From assembly GCA_021323595.1 (NCBI GenBank), contig JAJPKR010000025.1, positions 1 through 64,000 of the forward strand: a stretch of DNA of 64,000 nt. The letters are read 5' to 3'. The stretch is from Terriglobia bacterium (GTDB taxonomy: Bacteria; Acidobacteriota; Terriglobia; Terriglobales; SCQP01). Below are positions 7,676-53,357 of this stretch, piece by piece. Below the pieces are notes generated by a model. It was not told where the DNA came from. It saw only the letters and a list, made by a program, of their open reading frames with translations, and did no database searches. Position numbers and translations under genes: made by a program. Each line of letters opens with the position of its first letter. Position 1 is the stretch's first letter.

Positions 7676-9121
7676 CTAGCGGAGCGTGAACGTCGTGATG
7701 CTTTGCCCGGCGAGGGTGGCGGCGACGACGGGCGCGGCGCCGCCGCGCAACACCGGCGCTTCGCCGCGCAGCGGCGGGCCGAAGGGCAGCGGCTGCGCCA
7801 GCGGGCGCAATTCCTCGAACGCCGACGTGCGATAGGCGGCGACGGCGGCGGGCTGCAAATCGGCGATCGTGAACTCGGCCGCGACCGGCTGCGCGTTGTC
7901 GTTGATCGCGACGATCGCCAGCGCCTCCCCATCCCGGTAGGCGGAGACGAAGACGCCGGGCGCGGGAATCGCGTCGGCGGCGACGCGGTGCGCGCCGGGA
8001 CGCACGAAGCGGCTGTACTGGCCCAGCGCGAAGAGGCGGCGGTTGGGCATCCAGGTTTGGCTCGCGGGATCGAGCTGCACCAGCGCCTCGCGGTTGTCGC
8101 GCGGGGAGACCAGCCACCAGTAGAACCAGCCGGAGACTTGGTCCTCGGCCAGATGAAAATGCAGCAGCTTGGCCCAATAGAGCGCGTCGGCGATGCCCGC
8201 GTCGTTGCCGTTGAAGGCGCTGACCTCGGTCTGCCAGATGGGCTTGCCGGCGGCGCGGGCGGCGGGAAACGGGCCGATGCGGTCGGTGAGGCGCACCGCG
8301 GGCACGGCGTTATCGCCGAAGTAGGCGTGGGCGGCGACGATGCCGATGGCGTCGCGCGCTTCGGCGTCGCCGAGGGCGGGCACCACCGGCGCCTCGGTCC
8401 AGGTGCTCGGCTCGCCCAAGATCACTTGCGCCGGCACGCGGCGGCGGCGCCAGACGGGGCCGAGCGCGGTCTTGACGAAGTCGCGGTACTCCTCGCCGGT
8501 CCAATAACAGGAGGCGTATTGGACGGTGACGTCGGGCTCGTTCTGCGGGGAGACGGCGTAGATCTCGAGGCCGTGGCGGGCGCGGTATTCGAAAACGTAG
8601 CGCGCCAGGTACTCGGCATAATCCTCGTAGCGCTCGCGGCGCAGGCGGCCGCCGACGATGTTGGCGTTCGATTTCATCCAGGCGGGCGGCGTCCAGGCGG
8701 TGCTGACGAAGCGCGTGCAGCCGCGCTGCGCGGCTTCGCGCATCAGCCAAATCTGGCCGGCGTCGCCGCTCCAGTTCCATTGCCCCGCCGCCGGCTCGAT
8801 GCCCGGGGCGCGCCGGTCGCCGGCGGGGATGATGTTGCGCACCATGCTCAGGCCGGCGCCGTTGCCGCTGGTGGCGAAGAGCGCATCGAGCACGCGGGCG
8901 CGCTCGGCGTCGGCGAAGTGCTGGAGCAGATCCGCCATGTGGAAGGCGCCGGAGGCGCCGAAGCCGGCGATCTCTTGCGCCGCCCGCGCCGCTTCGATGC
9001 GCGCCCGCGCCGGCGCCGCCGCCGGCGCTCCGTCCGCGGCTTGCGCGCGCAGCAGCCGCGCAGGCAGCGCGAGCGCGGCCGCGCCCAGGGACGCCACTTT
9101 GCAGAAGTCTCGACGATGCAT
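7676..9121 (-). CDS. Secreted glycoside hydrolase, family 30-like
   Basis: The 481-residue protein starts with a twin-arginine-type leader (MHRRDFCKVASLGAAALALP), so it is likely exported folded. The catalytic TIM barrel shows the GH30 acid/base in SPQNEPD and the nucleophile in IWQTEVSAF. A C-terminal beta-sandwich follows (VAINDNAQPVAAEFTI). GH30 enzymes act on beta-linked glycans such as glucuronoxylan, glucosylceramide or beta-1,6-glucan, and the substrate cannot be read from sequence. The ORF track extends to 9709 through an antisense shadow of tmk. The true start is the ATG at 9119-9121. The next gene, tmk, is divergent. Confidence 0.85.
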   Translation of the reverse strand: MHRRDFCKVASLGAAALALPARLLRAQAADGAPAAAPARARIEAARAAQEIAGFGASGAFHMADLLQHFADAERARVLDALFATSGNGAGLSMVRNIIPAGDRRAPGIEPAAGQWNWSGDAGQIWLMREAAQRGCTRFVSTAWTPPAWMKSNANIVGGRLRRERYEDYAEYLARYVFEYRARHGLEIYAVSPQNEPDVTVQYASCYWTGEEYRDFVKTALGPVWRRRRVPAQVILGEPSTWTEAPVVPALGDAEARDAIGIVAAHAYFGDNAVPAVRLTDRIGPFPAARAAGKPIWQTEVSAFNGNDAGIADALYWAKLLHFHLAEDQVSGWFYWWLVSPRDNREALVQLDPASQTWMPNRRLFALGQYSRFVRPGAHRVAADAIPAPGVFVSAYRDGEALAIVAINDNAQPVAAEFTIADLQPAAVAAYRTSAFEELRPLAQPLPFGPPLRGEAPVLRGGAAPVVAATLAGQSITTFTLR

Positions 9122-9268
9122 GCCGGGTATCGTACTCGAAGCGGATCGCGAACGGGGCACAGCGGGCCGCGCCGCGGTCGGATGTCCCAAGCGGCGGCGC
9201 GGGCGCCGGAAAAGGGCCGCCCGCGCCGGATGCCGGGATGCCGCGCGCCCTGGCATGATAATCGGACG

Positions 9269-9907
9269 ATGCCCGGCGTATTCGTCAGCTTCGAGGGCGT
9301 GGATGGCAGCGGCAAGACGACGCAGCTCGAGCTGCTGGCGGAGCGGCTGCGCGCCCAAGGCCGCGACGTGGTGACCACGCGCGAGCCGGGCGGCACGGCG
9401 CTGGGGCAGGCGGTGCGGAGCTGGGTGCTGGAGGCGCAGGCAGAGCCGCTGGCGCCGCGGGCGGAGCTGGCGCTGCTCTTCGCGGCGCGGGCGCAGCACT
9501 TGCAGCAAGTGATCGAGCCGGCGCGGGCGCGCGGCGCGATCGTGCTCTGCGACCGCTTCACCGACGCCACCGAGGCCTATCAGGGCGCCGGGCGCGGGCT
9601 GGGCGCGGAGCTGGTGCGCGAGCTCGACCGGCTGATTTGCGGCGGCGCGCGTCCGGAGCTGACGCTGATCCTCGACTTGGACCCGGAGACGGCGCTGGCG
9701 CGGGCGCAAACGCGGCTGCGGCGCGCCGCTTCCGGCGAGAACCGCTTCGAGGCCGAGGGCGCGGCGTTCTTGCGGCGGGTGGCGGAGGCCTATCGCGCGA
9801 TCGCGCGGCGCGAGCCGGAGCGCTGCGCGCTGATCGCGGCCAGCGGCGCGATCGAGGCGGTGCGCGAGCGCGTCTGGCGCGCCGCCGCCGCGCGGCTGGG
9901 GTGGTGA
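9269..9907 (+). CDS. tmk: Thymidylate kinase
   Basis: Tmk phosphorylates dTMP to dTDP for DNA synthesis. The P-loop GVDGSGKT lies at residues 10-17, the DR(F/Y) motif in CDRFTDATEAYQG, and the LID region around RTRLRRAASGENRFE. Length is 212 residues, normal for the family. The ORF track gives an 1131-residue frame (6512-9907), but the first 919 residues are antisense to the NfeD and GH30 genes. The start is the ATG at 9269. The stop TGA shares a base with the holB ATG (TGATG), which is translational coupling often seen between tmk and holB. Confidence 0.95.
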   Translation: MPGVFVSFEGVDGSGKTTQLELLAERLRAQGRDVVTTREPGGTALGQAVRSWVLEAQAEPLAPRAELALLFAARAQHLQQVIEPARARGAIVLCDRFTDATEAYQGAGRGLGAELVRELDRLICGGARPELTLILDLDPETALARAQTRLRRAASGENRFEAEGAAFLRRVAEAYRAIARREPERCALIAASGAIEAVRERVWRAAAARLGW

Positions 9908-10992
9908 TGGGATTCGGCGAATTCATCGGCGACGCCCCGGCCGTGGCGCGGCTGCGCGAGCTGATCGCCGCGGGCGGCTTGAACCGCGCGCTGCTGCTGG
10001 CCGGCCCGCGCGGCGTGGGCAAGACGACGCTGGCGATCTTTGCCGGCCTGGCGCTGAACTGCGAGCAGCCGCCGGCGCCGGGGGATTTTTGCGGGGCCTG
10101 CGCCAGTTGCCGGCAGTTGGACCCGGGGTGGCGCGATCTCGAGGCGATGACGGCGGCGGCGCTCGAGTTTCGCGAGCAGCAAGGGAAGACGCGGGCGCGG
10201 GAAGAAGCGCCGCTGGTGCTGCGCGTGCATCCGGAGATCGAGATCTATCCGCCCGACGGCGACTTCTTGAGCATGGCGCAGGCGCGGCGCATCGGCGAGC
10301 GCGGCCATCGCCGCAGCGACCGCGGCCGCTATTGGACGGTGATCGTGCCGGAGTTCGAGCGCGCGCGCTGGATGACCCAGGCCACGCTGCTCAAGACGCT
10401 GGAGGAGCCGCCGCCGCGCACCGCGCTGCTCTTGCTGGCGGAAAACCCGCTCGAGCTGCTGCCCACGGTGCGCTCGCGGGCGCTGCTGCTGACCCTGCCC
10501 CCCGCCTCGCCGCCGGCGCTGGCGCGGCTGCTGGCGGAGCGGCGGGGCGAGCTGAGCGCCGCCGAGCGCGAGGCGGTGGCGCGCTGGTCGCAGGGACGGC
10601 CGGGACGGGCGCTGCGCCTCGACCCCGCCGAGTATCGCGAGTTGCGGCGGCAGGCGCTGCTGCTGCTGGCCACGGCCGGCGGCAGCGGGCCCTGGGCGCC
10701 GCTCTTCGAAATGACCCAGCAGGCCGCGCGGCCAGGCAAAGAAAGACTTGAATCACTGGTCGAAATTCTTTATAGTTTGCTGCAAGATATTTTGTACCTG
10801 CTTTCCGACCGGCCCGAAGCGATTCGCAACGCGGACTGCCGGGCCGAGTTGAGCGGCCTGGCGCAACAGTTCAACCTGCGAAGTGTGGCGTTCGCCACCG
10901 AAGAAGCCGATCGAGTCCTGGCGGCGACGCGGCGCAACGCGCAGCGAGGATTGGCGCTGGAGGCTTGGGCGTTGCGATTAGCCCGGGCGTGA
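9907..10992 (+). CDS. holB: DNA polymerase III delta' subunit
   Basis: The product is a clamp-loader subunit of the replicative polymerase. The N-terminal AAA+ domain has a Walker A motif (GPRGVGKT, residues 33-40), a four-cysteine zinc module (CEQPPAPGDFCGACASC), and the box LLKTLEEPP typical of gamma/delta' proteins. The C-terminal part (EILYSLLQDILYLLSDRPE) matches the collar domain. Length is 361 residues. It begins at the ATG overlapping the tmk stop by one base, excluding the upstream extension in the ORF track. A conserved Walker A is notable, because delta' in enterobacteria does not bind ATP. Confidence 0.9.
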   Translation: MGFGEFIGDAPAVARLRELIAAGGLNRALLLAGPRGVGKTTLAIFAGLALNCEQPPAPGDFCGACASCRQLDPGWRDLEAMTAAALEFREQQGKTRAREEAPLVLRVHPEIEIYPPDGDFLSMAQARRIGERGHRRSDRGRYWTVIVPEFERARWMTQATLLKTLEEPPPRTALLLLAENPLELLPTVRSRALLLTLPPASPPALARLLAERRGELSAAEREAVARWSQGRPGRALRLDPAEYRELRRQALLLLATAGGSGPWAPLFEMTQQAARPGKERLESLVEILYSLLQDILYLLSDRPEAIRNADCRAELSGLAQQFNLRSVAFATEEADRVLAATRRNAQRGLALEAWALRLARA

Positions 10993-35790: not shown

Positions 35791-37200
35791 ATGGCCGCCG
35801 GCAAGCCGCGCGTGCTGGTCGTGGACGACGAGCCGCACGAGCGCCAAGGACTATCCGAACTGATCGCCGCCTGGGGCTACGCCGTCGAGGGCGCGGCCGA
35901 CGGCGCGCAGGCGCTGGAGAAGCTGGCCGCCGCGCCCGCGCACGTGGTGATCACCGACATCCGCATGCCGCGCATGGACGGCTTGCAGCTTTTGGCGCGC
36001 ATCCGGCAGACTCTCGGCGACTTGCCGGTGCTGGTGTTGACGGGGCAAGGCTCGAAGGAGGCGGTGGTCGAGTGTCTGCGCCTGCGCGCCAACGACTACA
36101 TCGAGAAGCCGATTCGCGGCGGGGAACTGAAGCAGCGGCTGGCGGATCTGGTCTCCGAGGCGCTGCGCGCGGCCGCGCCGGCGGAGGCGGGCGGCGGGCG
36201 CGAGCGCGAAGACGCCGACGCGGAAGAATGGGAGTTCGCGGGCGAATCGAAGGCGGTCCAGGAGATTCGCGCGCTGATCCAGCAGGTCGCGCCCACCACC
36301 GCGAGCGTGCTGATCACCGGCGAGAGCGGCACGGGCAAGGAAGTGGTTGCCCGCCGCATCCACCAGCTCAGCCCGCGGCGCGAGCGCACGTTCCTGGCGG
36401 TCAACTGCTCGGCGATTCCCGAGAGCCTGATGGAGAGCGAGCTGTTCGGGCACGAGAAGGGCGCCTTCACCGGCGCCGTCGAGCGGCGCGCCGGCTGTTT
36501 CGAACTGGCCGAGAACGGCACCTTGCTCCTCGACGAGATCGGCGAAATGCCGCTGCCGACGCAAGCCAAGCTGCTGCGCGTGCTCGAAGACCGGCGCCTG
36601 CGCCGCCTGGGCAGCAAGGCGGAGATGCCGGTGAACGTGCGCGTGCTCGCCGCCACCAACAAGGATCCCGCCAAGGCGGTGGCGAGCGGGCAACTGCGCG
36701 GCGACCTTTATTACCGGCTCAACGTCTTTCATTTGCATCTGCCGCCGCTGCGCGAGCACCTGGAAGATCTCGAGCTGCTCTGCACCACCTGGCTGCGGCG
36801 GCTGAACCGGCGCCACGGGCGGCAAGTGCTGGGCATCTCGCCGGCGCTGCTGGCCGCCTTCCGCCGCCATCTGTGGCCGGGCAACGTGCGCGAATTGCGG
36901 AACGCGCTGGAGCGCGCCGTGATCGTCTGCGACGGGCCGATGCTCGAGCCGCGCCACCTGGCGCCCGACTTCGGCCGCGCCCGCCCGGTCTACGAAGACG
37001 ACGCGCACTCGGTGCGCGTTCCCGTGGGCACCACCGTCGCCGAGGCCGAGCGCCTGCTCATCTTGAAGACCCTGGCGGGCGAGAATAACAACAAGACTCG
37101 CGCCGCCGAGCGGCTCGGCATCAGCCTGAAGACGCTGCAGAACAAGCTCAAGGAGTATGGCGCCGCCAGCCGCGCGGCGGAAGCGGAGGTCCGGGAGTAG
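35791..37200 (+). CDS. NtrC-type sigma-54-dependent response regulator
   Basis: The 469-residue protein has a receiver domain (Asp12/13, phospho-acceptor Asp56 in ITDIRMP, Lys106 in YIEKP). The central AAA+ sigma-54 interaction domain follows (GESGTGKE at 177-184, GAFTGA at 224-229, LLLDEIGEM). A Fis-type helix-turn-helix ends the protein (NKTRAAERLGISLKTLQNKLKEYG). Phosphorylation would let it drive sigma-54 promoters. The partner kinase lies 162 bp downstream on the same strand. I see no clear -24/-12 promoter around it, so its targets are probably elsewhere. Confidence 0.93.
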   Translation: MAAGKPRVLVVDDEPHERQGLSELIAAWGYAVEGAADGAQALEKLAAAPAHVVITDIRMPRMDGLQLLARIRQTLGDLPVLVLTGQGSKEAVVECLRLRANDYIEKPIRGGELKQRLADLVSEALRAAAPAEAGGGREREDADAEEWEFAGESKAVQEIRALIQQVAPTTASVLITGESGTGKEVVARRIHQLSPRRERTFLAVNCSAIPESLMESELFGHEKGAFTGAVERRAGCFELAENGTLLLDEIGEMPLPTQAKLLRVLEDRRLRRLGSKAEMPVNVRVLAATNKDPAKAVASGQLRGDLYYRLNVFHLHLPPLREHLEDLELLCTTWLRRLNRRHGRQVLGISPALLAAFRRHLWPGNVRELRNALERAVIVCDGPMLEPRHLAPDFGRARPVYEDDAHSVRVPVGTTVAEAERLLILKTLAGENNNKTRAAERLGISLKTLQNKLKEYGAASRAAEAEVRE

Positions 37201-37362
37201 GCGCCGGCGACCCCGCAGCGGGCGGCCGGAGCCGGGAGCGGCAGGGCCGAGGATCCGCGTCAACGTGAACCCTCCAGGTACAAACGGTCTCCGCAACCCG
37301 CTGCCGGCAGACCGCCCACGGCCGGCTTCTAGCGGCCGCTTTCCGGCAGCCGGCCGCCAGCC

Positions 37363-39282
37363 ATGAAGCTCAAGACCAAACTGGTGCTGGCGCTGTCGCT
37401 GCTCGTGCTCGTGGTGGTGGCCGCGGTGAGCCTGCTGTATGTGGCCAGCATCCTGCGCGAGCAGATGCACGGCATCTACTCGAGCGCCGATTTCGTCTCG
37501 CGCGAGGTTTTCAACGAGGTCCGGCAAGAATTGCAAAGCGCCGCCGCCGCCGGCCTGGTGGACCTGCGGCAGCCGGGGGCAGCCGAGGAATTCATGCGCG
37601 CGCTCGACCAAAGCGCGGCTCTGACGACGCTGATGAACTCGGCGATCTCCTATCCGGTGACCAGCGCCGTGCGCGACGTGGCGGTGGTGGATGAGAACAA
37701 CCGCGTGCTCGCCGACTCCGATCCGCAGCTCGTGGGGCAGGTCTTGCCGCCGCGCGAGCAATTGCAAGCGGTGACCAGCGGCAGCCTCGCCAGCCAGTTG
37801 CGCGCCATCTTCGGCGCCGAGGAAGTCTACGAAGTCACGCTGCCGATGACGCTGGGGACGCAGCCGCTGGGTTCGATCCGCGTGGGCGTGGACACGGCGC
37901 TGGTGCGCGCGGCCCTCGCCTCGCGCATCCGCTCCATCGCCTTCTACGGCATCTTGATCGTGATCGTGGCCACGCTGCTGGCGGTCGCCTTCTCGGATTT
38001 CGCGCTCTCGCCGCTGAACGCGCTGAGCGCGCAACTCGACCGCGCCGTGCGCGGCGAGGCGGCCGAGACTCCCGCGGCGCGCTGGGGCGCGGAAGTGGGC
38101 CAGGTCAGCTCCAAGATCGAGTCGCTGGGGCGGCAGATTCAGGACGCGCGCCAGATCTACACCAGCCTGCACGAGAGCGTCACGCAAGTGCTGGAAGGGC
38201 TGGAAGAAGGCATCGTGCTGTTCGCCCCCGACGGCCGCGCCTTGATGGCCAGCGCCGCCGCCCAGACCTTTCTCGCCATGGCGCCGGCGCAAATCGTGGG
38301 CCGGCCGGTGGAAGAAGTCTTCGCCAGCGACTCGAGCCTCGACCGCGCGGTGCGGGCGGCGGTGCGGCGGGGGACGCCGCTGCCGCGGCGCGAAGTCGAG
38401 CGCGCCGCCGGCGGCCGGCCGCTGCTGGCGCGGCTCGACTGGCTGGGCGAGGGCAACCGGGCCAGCGCCCTGCTAGTGCTGCGCGACGCCGAGCGGGTGC
38501 ATCGCCTCGAAGATCTTCTGGAGGTCGCGCGCCGCCTCTCGGCCGTCGGCCGCCTCACCCACGGCGTCGCGCACGAGGTCAAGAACCCGCTCAACGCCAT
38601 GGCCATTCATCTCGATTTGCTGCGCGAGAAGGCGCGGGACCGCGATCTCGACCAGCACCTCGACATCATTCGCCATGAGCTCGACCGCCTGGATTGGGTG
38701 GTCAAGACCTTTCTCGATTTCACGCGGCCGGTGGAGGTGCGGCTGCGCCGCGTGGAATTGGCCGAGGTTGCCACCACGGTTCGCGATCTGGTTGCCGGCC
38801 AGGCGGCCACGCGCGGCATCGAGGTCATCGTCGAGGCGCCCGCGGACGGCGAGTTGCCGCCATTCTGGGCCGATCGCGACTTAGTCGAGCAGGTGCTGCT
38901 GAACTTGGTCAACAACGCCCTCGACGCCACCGCCGAGCGCCTGGCCGCGGCGCCCGCGGGGTCTTCTCCCGCCGCGGGCGGGCCGGCGGTCGTTCGCATC
39001 GCCCTCGCGCAGGAGGGCGAGGAGGCCGTGGTGCGCGTGCACGATCAAGGCGGGGGCGTGCCGGAGGAGATTCGCGAAAAGATCTTCGACCTTTACTTCT
39101 CGACCAAGGCCGAAGGCAGCGGGCTCGGCCTGGCTATCGCCGCCCGGGTCATGCAGCTTCATAATGGTTCGATCGAGTTGGAGCGCACCGCCGGGCCGGG
39201 CGCCTGTTTTTGCCTGCGCTTTCCCATGAGCGCGGGCGCGCCGGCGGAGCCGCCGCCAGCGGAAGAAGCCGCGGAAGCATGA
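37363..39282 (+). CDS. Membrane sensor histidine kinase
   Basis: The 639-residue protein has two membrane helices (about residues 7-27 and 193-213) enclosing a periplasmic sensor domain. A HAMP-like linker, a PAS-like domain (TQVLEGLEEGIVLFAPDGRALMASAAA), a HisKA domain with His404 in LTHGVAHEVKNPLNAM and an HATPase_c domain (LVNNALDATAE, GGGVPEEIREKIF, GSGLGLAIA) follow. The order matches NtrB/AtoS/ZraS-type partners of sigma-54 regulators. A proline/glutamate-rich tail ends the protein. Its regulator is immediately upstream. Confidence 0.93.
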   Translation: MKLKTKLVLALSLLVLVVVAAVSLLYVASILREQMHGIYSSADFVSREVFNEVRQELQSAAAAGLVDLRQPGAAEEFMRALDQSAALTTLMNSAISYPVTSAVRDVAVVDENNRVLADSDPQLVGQVLPPREQLQAVTSGSLASQLRAIFGAEEVYEVTLPMTLGTQPLGSIRVGVDTALVRAALASRIRSIAFYGILIVIVATLLAVAFSDFALSPLNALSAQLDRAVRGEAAETPAARWGAEVGQVSSKIESLGRQIQDARQIYTSLHESVTQVLEGLEEGIVLFAPDGRALMASAAAQTFLAMAPAQIVGRPVEEVFASDSSLDRAVRAAVRRGTPLPRREVERAAGGRPLLARLDWLGEGNRASALLVLRDAERVHRLEDLLEVARRLSAVGRLTHGVAHEVKNPLNAMAIHLDLLREKARDRDLDQHLDIIRHELDRLDWVVKTFLDFTRPVEVRLRRVELAEVATTVRDLVAGQAATRGIEVIVEAPADGELPPFWADRDLVEQVLLNLVNNALDATAERLAAAPAGSSPAAGGPAVVRIALAQEGEEAVVRVHDQGGGVPEEIREKIFDLYFSTKAEGSGLGLAIAARVMQLHNGSIELERTAGPGACFCLRFPMSAGAPAEPPPAEEAAEA

Positions 39283-41684: not shown

Positions 41685-43001
41685 TTAGGTCGCCGTCTGC
41701 CAGGCCGCGGCGGCGGCCAGCTCGCCCGCATGCGACGCGACTTTGCGCAGCGCTTCGCCGTAGGCGTGCATCACCTTCTCGCTTTGCGCATAGATGGGAT
41801 GCTCGTCGTTGGTCAGGCAGAAGGAATTGGCGAACATGTGGAGCGTGACCGGATAATCCTCGGCGCGGTATTCGTACTTCTGCTCCGGGTGCAGCCGCCA
41901 GGGAAAGCCCTTGCCGAACCCGTGCCGGCGGGCCAGCATCGGATGCGCGGGCAGCGGCGCGGTGCCCCAAAGATCGACGTCCACGCCTTCGGCGGTGAGC
42001 GCCGTCATGATCGCGTCGCGCAGCGCCGCGCCGCGCAGCGGGGTATCGAGCTCGTCGGGCACGATGGTGATGCGGTACTTGTGATAGACCGAGACGCAAC
42101 CCTCGGGAATCTGCGGCGCGCGAAAGCCTTTGAGCCCCTGGAGGTAGCCGTCGATGATGGCGGCATTGCGGCGCCCGGTCTCGTTGACCCCGGCCAGCCG
42201 CCGCAGTTGCGCGCGGGCGAACGCGCACGGCATCTCCTGCACGCGGTAGTTCCAGGCGAGCAAGTGCTGGTGGCGCATGGTGGGGTTCGCGGCGGGCAGC
42301 GTTTCGCCGACCTGCTTGAGCCAGCTGGCGCGGTAATAGGTCTCGTCGTCGTCGGTGACCATGAAGCCGCCCTCGCCGACGGAAAAGTTCTTGGTCCCAT
42401 TCACGCTAAAACCGGCGGCGCGCCCCAGCCGGCCGGCGGCCCGGCCGTGGTAGGTGGCGCCGGGGGCCTGGCAGGCGTCCTCGACGAGCAGCAGGTTGTG
42501 CTTGCGGGCGATGGCCGCGATGGCGTCCCAATCGGCGCAAAGGCCGTGGATATGCACGGGCATGATCGCGCGCGTGCGCGGCGTGATCTTGGCCTCGATC
42601 AGGCGCGGATCGAGGTTCCAAGTGCGCGCGTCGATATCCACGAAGACGGGGATGGCGCCGGCATGCAAGATCGCCGCCGGTGTCGCCAGGAACGAATACG
42701 CCGAGGTGATCACCTCGTCGCCCGCCTCGACGCCCGCCGCCACCAAAGCCAGGTGCAGGCCGGCGGTGCCGCCGTTGACGGCGAGGGCGTGCCGCGCGCC
42801 CAGGAACTCCGCGAACTCCCGTTCCAGCGCGTCCTGCTCCGGGCAGTGCAGGCCCTCGGTGGTGGTCATCGCCCACATCACCTTGCGGTCGAGCACGGCC
42901 ATCACCGCGCGCTTCTCGGCTTCCGTCACGATCGGCCAGAACGTCTTCTCGAGACTGGCCGGCACCGCGCGCGGCCCCCCTTGCACTGCCAATGTGGACA
43001 T
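41685..43001 (-). CDS. DegT/DnrJ/EryC1-family PLP-dependent aminotransferase (cluster gene)
   Basis: The product has 438 residues. The PLP lysine is in FSVNGTKNFSVGEGG, with VEDACQAPGA supplying the pyridine-binding Asp and NGGTAGLHL the phosphate region. It is distinct from the aminotransferase at 20614. It is the most downstream gene of the minus-strand lipid-like cluster, 24 bp after the first CapK/PaaK-like gene, and probably installs an amine on the product or makes the amino starter or head group. Its substrate cannot be read from sequence. Confidence 0.87.
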   Translation of the reverse strand: MSTLAVQGGPRAVPASLEKTFWPIVTEAEKRAVMAVLDRKVMWAMTTTEGLHCPEQDALEREFAEFLGARHALAVNGGTAGLHLALVAAGVEAGDEVITSAYSFLATPAAILHAGAIPVFVDIDARTWNLDPRLIEAKITPRTRAIMPVHIHGLCADWDAIAAIARKHNLLLVEDACQAPGATYHGRAAGRLGRAAGFSVNGTKNFSVGEGGFMVTDDDETYYRASWLKQVGETLPAANPTMRHQHLLAWNYRVQEMPCAFARAQLRRLAGVNETGRRNAAIIDGYLQGLKGFRAPQIPEGCVSVYHKYRITIVPDELDTPLRGAALRDAIMTALTAEGVDVDLWGTAPLPAHPMLARRHGFGKGFPWRLHPEQKYEYRAEDYPVTLHMFANSFCLTNDEHPIYAQSEKVMHAYGEALRKVASHAGELAAAAAWQTAT

Positions 43002-44382: not shown

Positions 44383-45633
44383 TCAAGCCGCCTCCAAAAT
44401 CACGCAGGCGTTTTGTCCCCCGAAGCCGAAGCCGTTCGAAAGCGCGCGCCGCCAGCGCCGCTCTTCGGCGGCGGCCACCACGTTGAGCGCGCACTCCGGA
44501 TCGAACTCGCGATAGTTCAGCGACGGCGGCAAGAACCCCGCCTCCATCGCCAAGATCGTCAGCGCCGCCTCCACGGCCGAGGCCGCCGCGATCAGGTGGC
44601 CGGTTGCGGCCTTGGTCGAGCTGATCGGCACCGCGCGCGCGGCTTCCCCCCATACGGCGCGAATGCCGGCGGCTTCGGCGCGGTCGTTGAGCACGGTGCC
44701 GGTGCCGTGGGCGTTGATGTAATCGATGTCCTCCGGGCGCAGGCCGGCGTCGCGGAGCGCCGCGGCCATGGCTTGCGCCGCGCCCCGGCCTTCGGGATGG
44801 CACTTGGTCAGGCCGAAGGCGTCGAGCGAGCTGCCGTAGCCGGTCAGCCAGGCGCGCGGCCGCGCGCCACGGCGGCGGGCATGCTCCTCGGCCTCCAGCA
44901 CCAGCGCCGCGGCGCCCTCGCCGACGACGAAGCCCCGCCGCTGCCGGTCGAAGGGACGGCACCAGGCGGCCGGCGCCTCGCCCTCGCGCGGGGGCGCCAG
45001 CGCCGCCAGCAATTCGTATTCCAGCAAGCTCAGCGGATCGAGCTGCGAATCGGCGCCGCCGGCGACGACCAGCTCGGCTTCGCCGCGTTCGATCAGGCGC
45101 TTGCCCATGCCCAGGGCGTCGTTGCCGGAGGCGCAGGCGGTGTAGCAGGCCACCTTCGCGCCGCCGGCGCCCGCGCGCCGGGCGAGGCGGGCGAGCAACT
45201 CCGCCGTGCCGTGGCCGTGGCGGCGCAGGGCGGCGGCGGCCTGCGCGCGCAGCCAGGCCAGTTGATCGGGCGCGGCGGCGTCGGGCGCGGCCGCGTCGAG
45301 CCAGCCGCGCAGTTGTTCTAGATCCAGGCGGGGCTTGCCCAGCGCCCAGCAGGCCGCGACCTCCGGCCGCGGCGCGGCGTCGGGCTCCAGGCGCGCGTCG
45401 CGCAGCGCCGCTGCCAGCGCCGTTTCCGCCAGCGCCGCGATACGGCCGGCGCCGCGCGGCAGATCCGCGTCCGCGACCTCGCCGCCGGCGGTCACCGGAA
45501 ACTTTTGTGAGGGGAACTGACGCAGGGGCCGCACGCCGCTGCGGCCGGCGCGCAGGGCGGTGCGATTGCTCTCGGCGTCGCCGCCGAGCGCGCTCACCAC
45601 CCCGAGGCCGGTGATCGCCACCCGCCGCTTCAT
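44383..45633 (-). CDS. Beta-ketoacyl-ACP synthase, intact active site (KS A)
   Basis: The 416-residue condensing enzyme has the catalytic Cys167 in CYTACASGNDAL, the first His in NAHGTGTVLND, Lys in STKAATGHL and the second His in the same ATGHL motif. The order of an active FabF-type enzyme is complete. Start is ATG 45631-45633 (MKRRVAITGLGVVSALGG); the longer ORF in the track runs into a neighbour's frames. It overlaps the half-length partner upstream by 4 bp (ATGA), as expected for a KS/partner pair. Confidence 0.88.
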   Translation of the reverse strand: MKRRVAITGLGVVSALGGDAESNRTALRAGRSGVRPLRQFPSQKFPVTAGGEVADADLPRGAGRIAALAETALAAALRDARLEPDAAPRPEVAACWALGKPRLDLEQLRGWLDAAAPDAAAPDQLAWLRAQAAAALRRHGHGTAELLARLARRAGAGGAKVACYTACASGNDALGMGKRLIERGEAELVVAGGADSQLDPLSLLEYELLAALAPPREGEAPAAWCRPFDRQRRGFVVGEGAAALVLEAEEHARRRGARPRAWLTGYGSSLDAFGLTKCHPEGRGAAQAMAAALRDAGLRPEDIDYINAHGTGTVLNDRAEAAGIRAVWGEAARAVPISSTKAATGHLIAAASAVEAALTILAMEAGFLPPSLNYREFDPECALNVVAAAEERRWRRALSNGFGFGGQNACVILEAA

Positions 45634-46469
45634 CGCGCCACCTCGCGCGTGGCCGCCGCTTCGACTGACGCCAGCGCCGCCAGCAGCGGCGCGCAGGCGG
45701 GGAAGCAGCTCTCCCACCCCGCGCCCAGCCCCGCCGTGATGGCTTCCAGCGCCGCCGCGTCCACCTCGAGGGCGATGGGCGCCCGCCGCGCTCGCGCCGT
45801 CTCCAGCGCCTCGAGCACGATCGCCGCCGCCGCTTCGCCCGCCGGCTCGGGGGCGAAGGCCTGCTCCGGCGTGTCGGCGGCTTCGCAGACCATCAAGTCG
45901 GCGCGGCCCTCGGCGATGAGCCAATAGCTCTCGCGCAAGATTTGCGCCGCCGCCTCGGCGCCGCTGGTGAGTGTCAGGCTGGGGCCTTGCAGGTCGAACA
46001 GGATCGAAACATGCCCCGCCGCCATGTTCGTGAGCAGCGCCAGCCGCCGGAAGGGATGCAGCCCGTGCAGCGCCGCCTGCCCGAATTCGCCCCATTCCTC
46101 CGCCGTGCCTAGGCGCCGCCCGGCGAGCGTCGCCAGCAGATCGGGCGTGGCGGGATTGATCTCGCCCGCGGCCACTGCGGTGCCCGCGCGCGCCGGGTCG
46201 ATGCCGGCGGCGGCCAGCCCGCCGGCTGCCACGCCGGCCTCGCGCAGCGCCAGCACCGCCGCCGCCGCGGTCAGTTGAAAGCCGCGATGCATCGCCCGCA
46301 GCACCTTGGGATTGCCGATGTACGCGCGCGCATCGAAGGCCACGGGCGCGGGCGGGGCGGCGGGCGCCGGCGCCGCCAGCCGGGCGAGCGCCGCCGCGCC
46401 GCCCTCCCAGGGCAGCAGCGCCCCGCGCCCGGTGATCACCACTCGCCTCGCTGCCGTCGCGCCGCTCAT
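45630..46469 (-). CDS. Half-length ketosynthase-like protein lacking the active site (chain-length-factor-like)
   Basis: This 279-residue protein covers only the N-terminal lobe of a thiolase-fold ketosynthase (RRVVITGRGALLPWEGG...NMAAGHVSILFDLQGPSLTLTSG). Where an active enzyme has Cys it reads SGAEAAAQ, and the C-terminal lobe with both catalytic His is absent. Short KS-like proteins of this kind occur in aryl polyene-type clusters as chain-length-factor partners. I start at ATG 46467-46469 (MSGATAARR), 10 bp after fabG. It overlaps the active ketosynthase after it by 4 bp. Confidence 0.78.
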   Translation of the reverse strand: MSGATAARRVVITGRGALLPWEGGAAALARLAAPAPAAPPAPVAFDARAYIGNPKVLRAMHRGFQLTAAAAVLALREAGVAAGGLAAAGIDPARAGTAVAAGEINPATPDLLATLAGRRLGTAEEWGEFGQAALHGLHPFRRLALLTNMAAGHVSILFDLQGPSLTLTSGAEAAAQILRESYWLIAEGRADLMVCEAADTPEQAFAPEPAGEAAAAIVLEALETARARRAPIALEVDAAALEAITAGLGAGWESCFPACAPLLAALASVEAAATREVAR

Positions 46470-46479
46470 CGTGGTCGGA

Positions 46480-47226
46480 TCATCCTCGCAGGCCGCCATC
46501 CACGCGCAGCACTTCGCCGGTGATGTAGTCGGCGTCGGGCGAGGCCAGAAACGCCACTGCGGCCGCGATGTCCTCGGGGCGGCCGTAGCGGTTGAGCATG
46601 ATGTAGGGCAGGATCTTGTCGCCCGCCAGCTCGCGCACCTCGCGGCTCATTTCCGTCTCGATCATGCCGGGCGCCACGGCGTTGACGGTGATGTTCTTCG
46701 GCGCCAGCTCCGCCGCCAGCGCCCGCGTCAGGGCGTTGATGCCGCCCTTGGAGGCGGCATAGTTGACCTGGCCGCGGTTCGGCTTCTCGCCCGCCGCCGA
46801 GGAAATGTTGATGATGCGGCCGCTGCGCTGCCGCAACATGAAGCGGGCGGCGGCGCGGCAGCAGTAGAAGCAGCTGTCGAGGTTGGTCGCCTGCACCTGC
46901 CGCCACTCGTCGTCGTCCATGGTCAGCAGCAGGTTGTCGCGCACGACGCCGGCGTTGTTGACCAGGATGTCGAGGCGGCCGAAATGCTTCTGCGCGTCTT
47001 CCACCAAGCGCCGCGCCGGTTCCGCCTGGCTGACGTCGGCGGCGAGCGCGAGGGCCTGGCCGCCGCCATGGACGATTTCCGCGACCACGGCGGCGGCCGC
47101 CGCCTCTTGCGAGCGATAATTCACCGCCACGCGCGCGCCTTCCTGCGCCAGGCGCAGGGCGATGGCGCGGCCGATGCCGCGGCTGGCGCCGGTGACCAAT
47201 GCGACTTTGTCCTGGAGCCGTTGCAT
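46480..47226 (-). CDS. 3-oxoacyl-ACP reductase, FabG-like
   Basis: A 248-residue short-chain dehydrogenase with the cofactor motif TGASRGIGRA, NNAGVVRD, catalytic Ser in INISSAAG, YAASKGG (Tyr and Lys) and the C-terminal GGLRG. The sequence is close to classical FabG and would reduce the ketoacyl product of the ketosynthases on the ACP. It lies between the half-length and the full-length dead ketosynthase genes. Confidence 0.9.
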   Translation of the reverse strand: MQRLQDKVALVTGASRGIGRAIALRLAQEGARVAVNYRSQEAAAAAVVAEIVHGGGQALALAADVSQAEPARRLVEDAQKHFGRLDILVNNAGVVRDNLLLTMDDDEWRQVQATNLDSCFYCCRAAARFMLRQRSGRIINISSAAGEKPNRGQVNYAASKGGINALTRALAAELAPKNITVNAVAPGMIETEMSREVRELAGDKILPYIMLNRYGRPEDIAAAVAFLASPDADYITGEVLRVDGGLRG

Positions 47227-47242: not shown

Positions 47243-48544
47243 CTAGTTCGCCGCCTCGAGCAGCAGGGACGCGGTGGTGCCCGCCAGGCTCGCCGAATTG
47301 ACCAGCACGCGCCGCGCCGCGATTGCGCGCGTCGCGCCGCGAACGTAATCCAAGCCCAGCTCCGGGTCGGGATGCTCGCAGTTGAGGATGGCGGGCACGC
47401 CGCCGATCGAGCCGCCGATGGTGCCGAGCGCCGCGACCGTTTCCAGCGGTCCCGAGCCGGCCAGCAGATTGCCCGTGGCCGATTTCACCGCCGTGACCGG
47501 CACATAGGCGGCGCGCGCGGTCAGCAACTGCTTGATCGCCTCCGCCTCGGCGCGGTCGGCATGCGCCGTGGCCAGGCCGTAGGCGTAGATCGCATCCAGC
47601 TCCCAAGGATCGCGGCGCGCGTCGTTCAGGCAAGCTTCCATGCCGCCGAGAAAGGCCGCCGCGGTCTCGCTCGGCCGCTCGGCGACGCCGGGATTGGCCA
47701 TGCCGTAGCCTTGGATCTCGCCGTAAATGCGCGCCTGGCGCCGCCGCGCCGCGTCGCGCTCCTCGAGCACCAAGAAGGCCGCGCCTTCGGCGGCCACGAA
47801 GCCGCCGCGATCGCGGTCGAAGGGGCGGCTCGCCGCCGCCGCCGGGCCGTCGCCCAAGTACAGCAGGCCGGAGGGCTCGAAGCTCTCCAGCCGCTCTTCT
47901 TCCAGCAGCGACTCGTAGCCGCCGGCCACCGCCAGGTCGGCGGCGCCGCCGCGGATCGCGCGAAAGGCCTCGCCGATGGCCATCGTGCCGCCGGCGCCGC
48001 TCATGCAGAAGTTGGCGTTCGTGCCTTGCGCGCCCAGCTTCAGGCTGACGAAGTACAGCACGATGTTCGCCAGGCTCTTCAGCAGCCAGAGGGGATTGAT
48101 GGTGGCGATGCCTTCGGCGCCGAAGGCCTTGAGATCGAGGTGGCCGTTGCGGTCGCGCGCCGCCGCCGCCAGCGCCGGCAGCAGCTCGTCGCGATCGCCG
48201 GCGTGGCCGGGCGAGCCCACGAAGGTGGCGATGCGGTAGGGGTCGAGCGCGCCGGCCTCGATGCCGGCGTCGCGAATCGCTAGTTCCGCCGCCGCCACGC
48301 CCAGCCGCACCGGCCGGGTCATCAGCTTCAAGCTCTTGGGATCGGCGATGAAGCGCCGGGCGTTGAAATCGCGCACCGCCCCGCACACCTTGGTGCGGAA
48401 CGGCGTCAAATCCAGATGCGCTTCCGTGCCCAGGCCGGAGCGGCCCGCCGCCAGCGCCGCCCACAACTCCTCGGCGGAGCAGCCGAGCGGGGAGACCACG
48501 CCCACGCCCGTAATCACGACCCGGCGCTCGCCCTCACGCGACAT
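47243..48544 (-). CDS. Catalytically dead full-length ketosynthase (chain-length-factor-like)
   Basis: The 433-residue protein has the full thiolase fold (RRVVITGVGVVSPLGCSAEE), but all key residues are altered. The Cys position reads GAGGTMAIG, the first His motif NAHGTxT is YAYGLAT, and KSxTGH is KSATGNL, with Asn for His. Such a loss of every catalytic group while the fold is kept is the hallmark of chain-length factors, which pair with an active KS and set chain length. It overlaps the intact ketosynthase upstream by 11 bp. Confidence 0.85.
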   Translation of the reverse strand: MSREGERRVVITGVGVVSPLGCSAEELWAALAAGRSGLGTEAHLDLTPFRTKVCGAVRDFNARRFIADPKSLKLMTRPVRLGVAAAELAIRDAGIEAGALDPYRIATFVGSPGHAGDRDELLPALAAAARDRNGHLDLKAFGAEGIATINPLWLLKSLANIVLYFVSLKLGAQGTNANFCMSGAGGTMAIGEAFRAIRGGAADLAVAGGYESLLEEERLESFEPSGLLYLGDGPAAAASRPFDRDRGGFVAAEGAAFLVLEERDAARRRQARIYGEIQGYGMANPGVAERPSETAAAFLGGMEACLNDARRDPWELDAIYAYGLATAHADRAEAEAIKQLLTARAAYVPVTAVKSATGNLLAGSGPLETVAALGTIGGSIGGVPAILNCEHPDPELGLDYVRGATRAIAARRVLVNSASLAGTTASLLLEAAN

Positions 48545-50941: not shown

Positions 50942-51706
50942 TTATCGCACGCTCATCAGCGACAAGCCGCCGTCGGCGACGATGGTCTGACCGTAAATCC
51001 AATGCGCCGCCTCCGAACAGAGAAACGCCGCCACGTCCGCCACGTCCTCGGGCCGGCCGATGCGCCCCGCCGGCGACAGCTTCTCGCACGCCTCTTTCAT
51101 CTGGTCGTAGGTCGAGAACAGCCGCAGCGCGTCGGTATCGATCGGCCCCGCCGACAACGTGTTGACGTTGATGCCTTCCTTGCCCAACTCCACCGCCAAA
51201 TAGCGGCTGAGCGCCTCGGTCGAGGCTTTGGCCACCCCGATCGGCGCGTAATTGGGTATGTAAAACTGCGAGCCGAGGCTGGAGAGGCTCAGGATCTTGC
51301 CCCGCCGCCCCTTCATCAGCGGCACCGCCTTTTGCGCGCTCAGCAGCAGCGCCGTGGTGTTGCGCTCGACCGTGTGCTCCCAGGCTTGCAGGCGCTGGCG
51401 CAGCACGGGGCCGAAGCTGGCCACGTCGATGGCGTTGTTGACGAAGATGTCCAAGTAGCCGAACTGCGTCCGGATGAACTCGAACATCTTGGCGATGCCC
51501 TCGGGGCTGATCGCGTCGGCTTGCAGCACTTCCGCCCGCCGCCCCAGCCCGCGCAGCTCCGCCGCCAGCGACTTCGCCGCCTCGTCGCTGGTCACGTAGT
51601 TGATCACCACGTCGGCGCCGGCTTGGCCGAGCCGCAGGGCGATGGCGCGGCCGATGCCGCGCGCCCCGCCCGTCACCAGCGCCACTTTCCCGTTCAGATC
51701 GATCAC
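50942..51706 (-). CDS. FabL-like enoyl-ACP reductase (short-chain dehydrogenase)
   Basis: The 254-residue protein from GTG 51704-51706 (VIDLNGKVALVTGGARGIGRA) resembles FabL of Bacillus. NNAIDVASF replaces the NNAG motif, YAPIGVAKAS carries the Tyr and Lys pair, and IDTDALRLFSTYDQMKEACEKLSPAGR is close to the FabL C-terminal region. FabL reduces the enoyl-ACP double bond, so the cluster can make at least partly saturated chains. The ORF track's upstream part is not supported. Confidence 0.82.
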   Translation of the reverse strand: MIDLNGKVALVTGGARGIGRAIALRLGQAGADVVINYVTSDEAAKSLAAELRGLGRRAEVLQADAISPEGIAKMFEFIRTQFGYLDIFVNNAIDVASFGPVLRQRLQAWEHTVERNTTALLLSAQKAVPLMKGRRGKILSLSSLGSQFYIPNYAPIGVAKASTEALSRYLAVELGKEGINVNTLSAGPIDTDALRLFSTYDQMKEACEKLSPAGRIGRPEDVADVAAFLCSEAAHWIYGQTIVADGGLSLMSVR

Positions 51707-51753: not shown

Positions 51754-53010
51754 CTAGCTCCGGACGCCGACCTTCTCCGTCTGCCGCGCCATCTCCCGCA
51801 GCGCCTCTTGCAGCCGCCGGTATTGCACCGACAGATCGTGCTCGGGATGGCCTTGCTTGACCTGCGGGCTCTTGAAATAAAAGCCCAGCCATTCCTGCAC
51901 GCCCTTGCGCCCGGAGCGCTGCGCCGCGTCGCTGAGCAGCGCCAGGTCCAGCAGCAGCGGCGCCGCCAGGATGCTGTCGCGGCACAGGAAGTTGATCTTG
52001 ATCTGCATCTCGTAGCCGAGCCAGCCGATCACGTCGATGTTGTCCCAGCTCTCTTTGTTGTCGCCGCGCGGCGGATAGTAATTGATCTTGACCTGGTGCG
52101 ACAGTTGCCCGTAAAGCTCGGGATAGACCGCCGGCTCGAGGATGTGATTCAGCGCCGAAAGCTTCGACTCCTCCTTGGCGCGGAACGCCGCCGGATCGTC
52201 AAGCACCGCGCCATCCTGGTTGCCGAGGATGTTCATCGAGAACCAGCCGGCGATGCCCAGCATGCGCTGCTTCAGGCCGGGCGCCAAAATGGTCTTGAGC
52301 AAGGTTTGGCCGGTCTTGAGGTCCTTGCCGCTGACGGGCACGCCGTTGGCTTCGGCCAGCTCCAGCATGACCGGCAGATCCACGGTGAGGGTCGGGGTGG
52401 CGTTGACGAACGGGCACTTTTCCTTCAGCGCCGCATAGGCATAAATCATGCTGGGCGCGATCGTCGGCTCGTCCTGCTTGAGCGCGGTCTCGAAGATGCG
52501 CGAGTTCTGGTGCGCCGGGCCGGGGGAGGAAAACACCTCCGTCGAGCCGCACCATAGCACCACCACGCGATCCACGTTGTGGCGGCGGCGGAAGGCGCGA
52601 ATGTCTTCGCGCAGCGCCTCGGCTTGCTCGAACTTGTTGGTCTGCGGCTTCAGCCGCCGCCCCTCCGCGCGCCGCAAATAGCGGGGATCGTGAATGCCCG
52701 CCATCGGCGTGATCTCGCGCAGCGCCGGCTCCAGCTCCCGCAGCAGCAGCGGCGAGAGCACCGCCGCGCGCTGGGCGGCATCGAAGGCGTCGCCGTCGGC
52801 GATGTCCCAGCCGCCGAAGCGCAACTGATTCAGCTTGGGCAACTGCAGGGCCTCGCTCATCGGCGCGCCGTCGAGCAGCGCCATCTGCGTCAGCGCCCCG
52901 TAGGGCTTTCCCAGTTCGCGTTCGATCGCCGCGACTCCGGCCACCAACGTGGTCGAGATCGCGCCCATGCCGACCATCAAGATTCCCAATCGCGGGGTAC
53001 CCGAGTCCAT
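51754..53010 (-). CDS. Myo-inositol-1-phosphate synthase
   Basis: The product (418 residues) converts glucose 6-phosphate to L-myo-inositol 1-phosphate with NAD. The N-terminal Rossmann part (GILMVGMGAISTTLVAG), the central WCGSTEVFSSPG, KTGQTLLKTILAPGLK, GWFSMNILGNQDG and the SHQVKINYYPPRGDNKESWDNIDVIGWLG block are characteristic. ATG 53008-53010 is chosen over 53032 because GGAGG lies 8 nt upstream of it. It lies inside the cluster, 47 bp before the FabL-like gene, and could supply an inositol phosphate head group. Confidence 0.9.
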   Translation of the reverse strand: MDSGTPRLGILMVGMGAISTTLVAGVAAIERELGKPYGALTQMALLDGAPMSEALQLPKLNQLRFGGWDIADGDAFDAAQRAAVLSPLLLRELEPALREITPMAGIHDPRYLRRAEGRRLKPQTNKFEQAEALREDIRAFRRRHNVDRVVVLWCGSTEVFSSPGPAHQNSRIFETALKQDEPTIAPSMIYAYAALKEKCPFVNATPTLTVDLPVMLELAEANGVPVSGKDLKTGQTLLKTILAPGLKQRMLGIAGWFSMNILGNQDGAVLDDPAAFRAKEESKLSALNHILEPAVYPELYGQLSHQVKINYYPPRGDNKESWDNIDVIGWLGYEMQIKINFLCRDSILAAPLLLDLALLSDAAQRSGRKGVQEWLGFYFKSPQVKQGHPEHDLSVQYRRLQEALREMARQTEKVGVRS

Positions 53011-53357
53011 GCCTTCTGCCTCCCGATTGGTCATTGTGTTGGCTGCGCATTAATCACGCGTTAAACCACCATTAAACGTTTTTCATGATTCATTCCGGGG
53101 CCGCCGCGCATTGCGCAAGCCGCGGCGGCCTCGACATCGCGGCCGAGCGCGCGCCCGGCGCGGGCGGCGATGGCGCAAGGCTTGAGGTCTCGCCGCCGAT
53201 CGGCGCGTAACTCGCCGGCGGCGGGAAGGCGATTCACGGATGCGTGCTCGAAACCCCAATCTGAGTCGCGATGAGCGCAGGGATTTCGCAGCCGGATTGG
53301 AACGCCAGGGAGCGAACTCGGCGGCACCGGCCACGGTGCGCCCCCTGGTTGCGGCGC
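53011..53357. other. Intergenic region upstream of the inositol-phosphate synthase
   Basis: No supported gene; the 83 and 88-residue frames are shadows. The part next to the synthase start is A/T-richer than its surroundings and holds the TTAAAC direct repeat. A promoter here would let the inositol, reductase, ACP and ketosynthase genes be controlled separately from the second ligase and mglA. Confidence 0.4.
53061..53077. promoter_or_regulatory. Direct repeat TTAAAC-N5-TTAAAC
   Basis: TTAAAC occurs twice, 11 bp apart, in a local A/T-rich patch 50-66 bp upstream of the chosen start of the inositol-phosphate synthase. An 11-bp period places both copies on the same face of the helix, as for tandem-binding response regulators. 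No such regulator is next to it, so the site is only a candidate. Confidence 0.35.

Follow-up and report, generated by a model that had tools for sequence, protein, structure and literature searches.

Half-sized partners of ketosynthases (KSs) were previously known from one enzyme family, ApeC. In the aryl polyene enzyme ApeO-ApeC, the first thiolase domain of ApeC is mostly kept and the second is almost lost (PMC8358021). The partner is full length in the classical type II polyketide synthase (PKS) pairs of a KS and a chain-length factor (CLF), such as those of actinorhodin (1TQY), AntDE (6SMO/6SMP), and ishigamide (6KXD), in which a Cys-less protein lies beside an intact KS together with an acyl carrier protein (ACP), ketoreductase (KR), and dehydratase (DH). 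Here, we analyzed a 64,000-nucleotide stretch of a Terriglobia bacterium of the Acidobacteriota (GCA_021323595.1, contig JAJPKR010000025.1, positions 1 to 64,000; hereafter the window), which carries an operon with a full-length pair of this classical kind, KS1-CLF1, and with a half-length KS-like gene, sKS, followed by the intact KS2. Like the classical partners, sKS is Cys-less and accompanied by an intact KS, ACP, KR, and DH; unlike them, it lacks the whole C-terminal lobe (C-lobe). Like ApeC (PF13723; PDB 6QSP, 7F28), it consists of one thiolase lobe of about half the KS size, without an active site and with an intact KS partner (PMC8358021), and of the known CLFs none other than ApeC has this one-lobe form. 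The closest sequence and fold matches of the lobe are to FabF (KASII), from which sKS differs in its half length and absence of catalytic residues. The sequence thus shows a protein reduced to the first thiolase lobe, devoid of all catalytic residues and translationally linked to KS2, and we consider it quite probable that sKS is a half-length CLF (KS-beta) type subunit for KS2, with the complex and its effect on chain length being predictions. The two genes are located as follows.

45630..46469, minus strand: sKS, half-length Cys-less ketosynthase-like protein, 279 amino acids (aa), proposed CLF-type partner of KS2
44383..45633, minus strand: KS2, intact ketosynthase, 416 aa

The sKS gene, its product, and its conservation

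The sKS reading frame runs from ATG to TGA over 279 codons (46469-45630, minus strand), and its TGA (45632-45630) and the KS2 ATG (45633-45631) share the 4-bp overlap ATGA, as the initial annotation had described. An alternative ATG at 46499 would give 289 aa and run into the upstream SDR gene; the alignments of the relatives' sKS begin at approximately 46469. Codon scoring, trained on the remaining operon genes, gave 0.38 for the sKS frame and −0.13 to −1.10 for the five others, so that only the former was positive. The product matched PF00109, the N-terminal ketoacyl-synthase domain (E 1.4e-8), and no match to the C-terminal domain PF02801 was found in it, whereas KS2, KS1, and CLF1 each matched both. 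The initial view of a gene-like frame of 279 residues that ends before the C-lobe was hence upheld.

Relatives' sKS genes were located by tblastn in ten other genomes of the same family whose contigs cover the sKS position, which together with the present genome gave 11 genomes of six genera; three of the relatives are Acidobacteria metagenome-assembled genomes in public records. In a 59-sequence alignment, the Cys-equivalent residue of sKS was Ala171 within LTSGAEAAAQ, consistent with the replacement noted initially in SGAEAAAQ, and this position was A, V, I, or T across all 11 sKS sequences and never Cys. The same alignment showed that the RPFD..RDGFV segment, located between the two halves of the N-terminal lobe (N-lobe) in KSs, is deleted in sKS, and that sKS lacks the C-lobe, including the His, Lys, and His residues, except for a tail variable in length and sequence. 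All of the 50 columns invariant among the sKS sequences lie in the N-lobe core (residues 1-230), for which the mean identity was 54% as compared with 28% for the tail, and the NMxxGH motif is nearly invariant. An AlphaFold model, predicted from the 11 sequences (mean pLDDT 77.8, pTM 0.79), appeared as one alpha/beta thiolase lobe with a C-terminal helix, for which Foldseek gave FabF as the best match (1.6e-12).

The short form was open and positioned immediately before KS2 in all 11 genomes (261-341 aa), with the 4-bp ATGA overlap at the junction in seven and a gap of 1-2 bp in the other four; a full-length gene occurred at this position in none of them. In three more genomes (G009, G012, and G013), which are outside the 11, the operon is present and the contig stops before or within sKS. 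The gene order lig2-MIPS-SDR1-ACP-FabZ-KS1-CLF1-SDR2-sKS-KS2-lig1-DegT was constant as far as the contigs extend, the one exception being the excerpt of G003, in which no lig2 was detected. For close pairs, dN/dS was 0.18-0.37 for sKS and 0.10-0.22 for KS2. Truncation, frameshift, and assembly error were excluded because the short open form, the junction, and the gene order are conserved and dN/dS is low, which agrees with the initial statement that sKS does not look like a frameshift remnant. A decaying CLF, that is, a pseudogene in progress, or an artefact of truncation or assembly could be suspected from the rate of sKS, which evolves fastest in the operon (mean pairwise identity of 0.48 versus 0.60-0.77 for the other genes), and from its tail, whose identity is 0.28. 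Such a reading is extremely unlikely, considering that neither frameshift nor internal stop was detected in any of the six genera, and that a dN/dS of 0.2-0.4, an invariant core, and the KS2 junction are preserved. These sequences show that sKS is maintained by purifying selection throughout one family within the Acidobacteriota.

Relation to ApeC

The initial annotation had suggested a link of sKS with the short CLFs of aryl polyene clusters (PF13723, Ketoacyl-synt_2), and this link was not supported. No PF13723 match was found in sKS at E ≤ 0.1, and none across its genome. The sKS profile reached FabF at 2e-25, and ApeC was absent among the 60 chains listed for it (down to E 0.056); a profile of Acidobacteriota ApeC matched 6qsp_B and 7f28_A and no FabF. 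With hhalign, the probability was 0.6% for sKS against ApeC and 99.6% (E 3e-24) against CLF1. PF13723 proteins do occur in other Acidobacteriota, which leaves some room for sKS being a true ApeC family member in an aryl-polyene-like cluster. This is nevertheless very unlikely in view of the missing PF13723 match, the mutually exclusive profile searches, and the hhalign result, and none of the operon genes was recognized as specific to aryl polyene clusters. In contrast to ApeC, sKS is FabF/CLF-like (PF00109) with no detectable sequence-family relation to it, is coupled to its KS through 4 bp, and resides in an operon with a full-length KS-CLF pair, a myo-inositol-1-phosphate synthase (MIPS), two PaaK-like ligases, and a DegT aminotransferase.

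Because the profile searches separate sKS from ApeC and place it nearest to FabF and CLF1, its reduction looks independent of ApeC. The short form would have arisen by loss of the C-lobe inside a KS-CLF lineage near FabF. A literature search revealed no paper on this operon, nor on half-length CLFs besides ApeC. If the independent origin is true, ApeC is no one-off, and the loss of a whole lobe by KS partners happened more than once; the essential part of a CLF would then be the lobe that makes the KS interface and the floor of the pocket.

Probable partnership between sKS and KS2

In a tree of N-lobes, a branch supported at 99/89 separated sKS, CLF1, and six CLF-like proteins of other Acidobacteriota from KS1, KS2, the corresponding catalytic KSs, and FabF. 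KS2 was sister to the KSs of two other Acidobacteriota loci, in G086 and G218 (96/92). A partial Mantel test, which removes the shared species signal, was performed on 8 genomes and gave the highest of 21 pairwise values for sKS-KS2 (r 0.62, P 0.0024). A signal was also obtained for KS1-CLF1 (r 0.56, P 0.008), and none for the cross pairs (KS1-sKS, 0.02; CLF1-KS2, −0.20). An earlier version with 11 genes likewise ranked sKS-KS2 highest (r 0.74, of 55). Thus, sKS possesses several marks of the CLF type, namely a replaced Cys, adjacency and coupling to an intact KS, and grouping with KS partners, while the full-length two-lobe fold is lacking together with the C-lobe. The cluster was initially thought to hold two distinct KS/partner pairs, and these can now be named KS1-CLF1 and KS2-sKS.

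Several points weigh against this assignment and against the separate origin described above. The partnership is based on coupling, rate covariation, and phylogeny. Within the tree, sKS was sister to the partners in the same G086 and G218 loci with weak support (82/52), and the clustering of all partners could be aided by their shared loss of catalytic residues or by attraction between divergent sequences. The Mantel sets are small with non-independent distances, and r was as high as 0.57 for SDR2-DegT, two unrelated genes; the noise is therefore not negligible. The AlphaFold input for sKS consisted of only 11 sequences, with a mean pLDDT of 78. The comparison between the sKS and ApeC profiles used shallow alignments, so that the half-length forms may still share a very old ancestor.

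In the predicted heterodimer, KS2 is joined by sKS as the subunit without catalytic activity, and sKS would supply the interface helix and the floor of the acyl pocket of KS2 through its invariant LHPFRRL...NMAA...H.S segment. In E. coli FabF, Phe133 closes the acyl pocket of the partner subunit. The sKS segment HPFRRL...NMAAGHVSI, which we take to correspond to the dimer-interface helix of FabF and to this Phe133, favors, without proving it, a role of sKS in shaping the pocket of KS2. In such a complex, sKS would set the chain length or substrate shape, and the condensation would be performed by KS2. Alternatively, sKS may be a non-catalytic subunit with another job and no role in chain length, such as a folding chaperone of KS2 or a docking site for the extended ACP, or it may partner KS1/CLF1. 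Together with the C-lobe, sKS has indeed lost a large share of the contribution that a classical CLF makes to the tunnel, and the interface helix of KS2 is without NMxxGH, as if reliant on a partner. This alternative appears rather unlikely, since sKS has conserved the very lobe through which KSs of this fold dimerize, and the rates of sKS covary with those of KS2 and not with those of KS1 or CLF1.

We therefore favor the CLF-type partnership with KS2, and KS1-CLF1 may serve as a second, conventional pair on the same extended ACP, KRs, and DH. The operon would then encode two heterodimers for elongation, which perhaps build successive segments of a chain or different ones, and offers an internal comparison between a full-length and a half-length partner. 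Taken as a whole, with moderate confidence, sKS is a second half-length CLF, derived independently of ApeC from a FabF-like KS-CLF pair by C-lobe loss, and the dedicated partner of KS2 in a two-heterodimer operon in which a full- and a half-length partner act on one extended ACP; the operon probably makes a lipid or a cyclitol- or amino-sugar-linked acyl product common to the entire family.

The operon and related loci

The operon comprises 12 genes of the fatty-acid/polyketide type and represents a previously undescribed, family-wide acyl-chain operon in Acidobacteriota. Besides sKS and KS2, it contains the following genes.

41685..43001, minus strand: DegT/DnrJ/EryC1-family aminotransferase, 438 aa
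43026..44360, minus strand: lig1, PaaK-like AMP-dependent acyl-CoA ligase, 444 aa
46480..47226, minus strand: SDR2, FabG-like ketoreductase, 248 aa, directly upstream of sKS
47243..48544, minus strand: CLF1, full-length Cys-less partner of KS1, 433 aa
48534..49826, minus strand: KS1, intact FabF-type ketosynthase, 430 aa
49823..50350, minus strand: FabZ-like dehydratase, 175 aa
50404..50883, minus strand: acyl carrier protein, 159 aa, with a conserved C-terminal extension
50942..51706, minus strand: SDR1, short-chain reductase, 254 aa with the codon-scored start
51754..53034, minus strand: MIPS homologue, 426 aa
53358..54716, minus strand: lig2, PaaK-like AMP-dependent acyl-CoA ligase, 452 aa

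In CLF1, the Cys and both active-site His positions are replaced. Cys167, His309, Lys341, and His346 of KS2 are invariant in 8 genomes, and its model shows both lobes of an entire KS and matches FabF and KS-CLF structures. Around residues 100-160 of KS2, the usual NMxxGH motif of the dimer-interface helix is lost across the family, and the length of this region varies. The C-terminal extension of the ACP is conserved in ACPs of other Acidobacteriota KS/partner loci and is covered by no Pfam model.

The loci in G086 and G218 (L071, 4276-15118; L072, 4379-15855) each contain a KS, a shortened Cys-less partner, and an extended ACP. Their partners (366 and 386 aa) look like partly reduced forms, because they have lost the RPFD..RDGFV segment as well as a large part of the C-lobe. 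The neighbors are LpxB, an LpxD-like acyltransferase, an LpxL-type acyltransferase, DUF374, and KdtA, which makes these lipid A loci, and the 366-386-aa partners look like an intermediate stage. They resemble the rhizobial acpXL-fabZXL-fabF2XL-fabF1XL cluster, a locus for the very-long-chain fatty acid of lipid A (PMC11901934). The window operon shares an unusually long ACP and tandem KS genes with both, and differs from them in the absence of lpx genes and in the shorter sKS. A weak NCBIfam match of sKS was obtained for PRK06519 (E 2.5e-4), presumably FabF2XL, and the direct comparison between sKS and FabF2XL consists of this match. A phylum-wide profile search with the L071/L072 partners gave only the two starting loci above a background of approximately 180-200 bits formed by ordinary KSs and full-length partners. 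The corresponding search with the sKS profile gave no further clear sKS outside the family, its matches being CLF-like or FabF, and tblastn against plasmids gave no match.

A half-length Cys-less partner was also observed in a distant member of the Acidobacteriota (L075 in G229, 9105-9959), which is 284 aa from the chosen ATG and overlaps its KS by the 4-bp ATGA. It was sister to a full-length partner (100/98). This protein may be another independent half-length case, but it was found in none of 40 relatives, and a single origin with sKS was not rejected by the AU test (p 0.099). Eubacterium matches from a collection scan (L024-L027) were dismissed as ordinary full-length FabF.

In place of lpx genes, the window operon carries MIPS, two PaaK-like ligases, and the DegT aminotransferase, and our guess is that its product has a cyclitol or amino-sugar head group to which an acyl chain is attached. 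The MIPS homologue, whose closest solved structure is 7NWR, is kept in the operon across the whole family, and a second MIPS of the same genome is located on another contig. Near the downstream end of the operon, a sigma-54 response regulator and a sensor histidine kinase form a pair on the plus strand (35791-39282).
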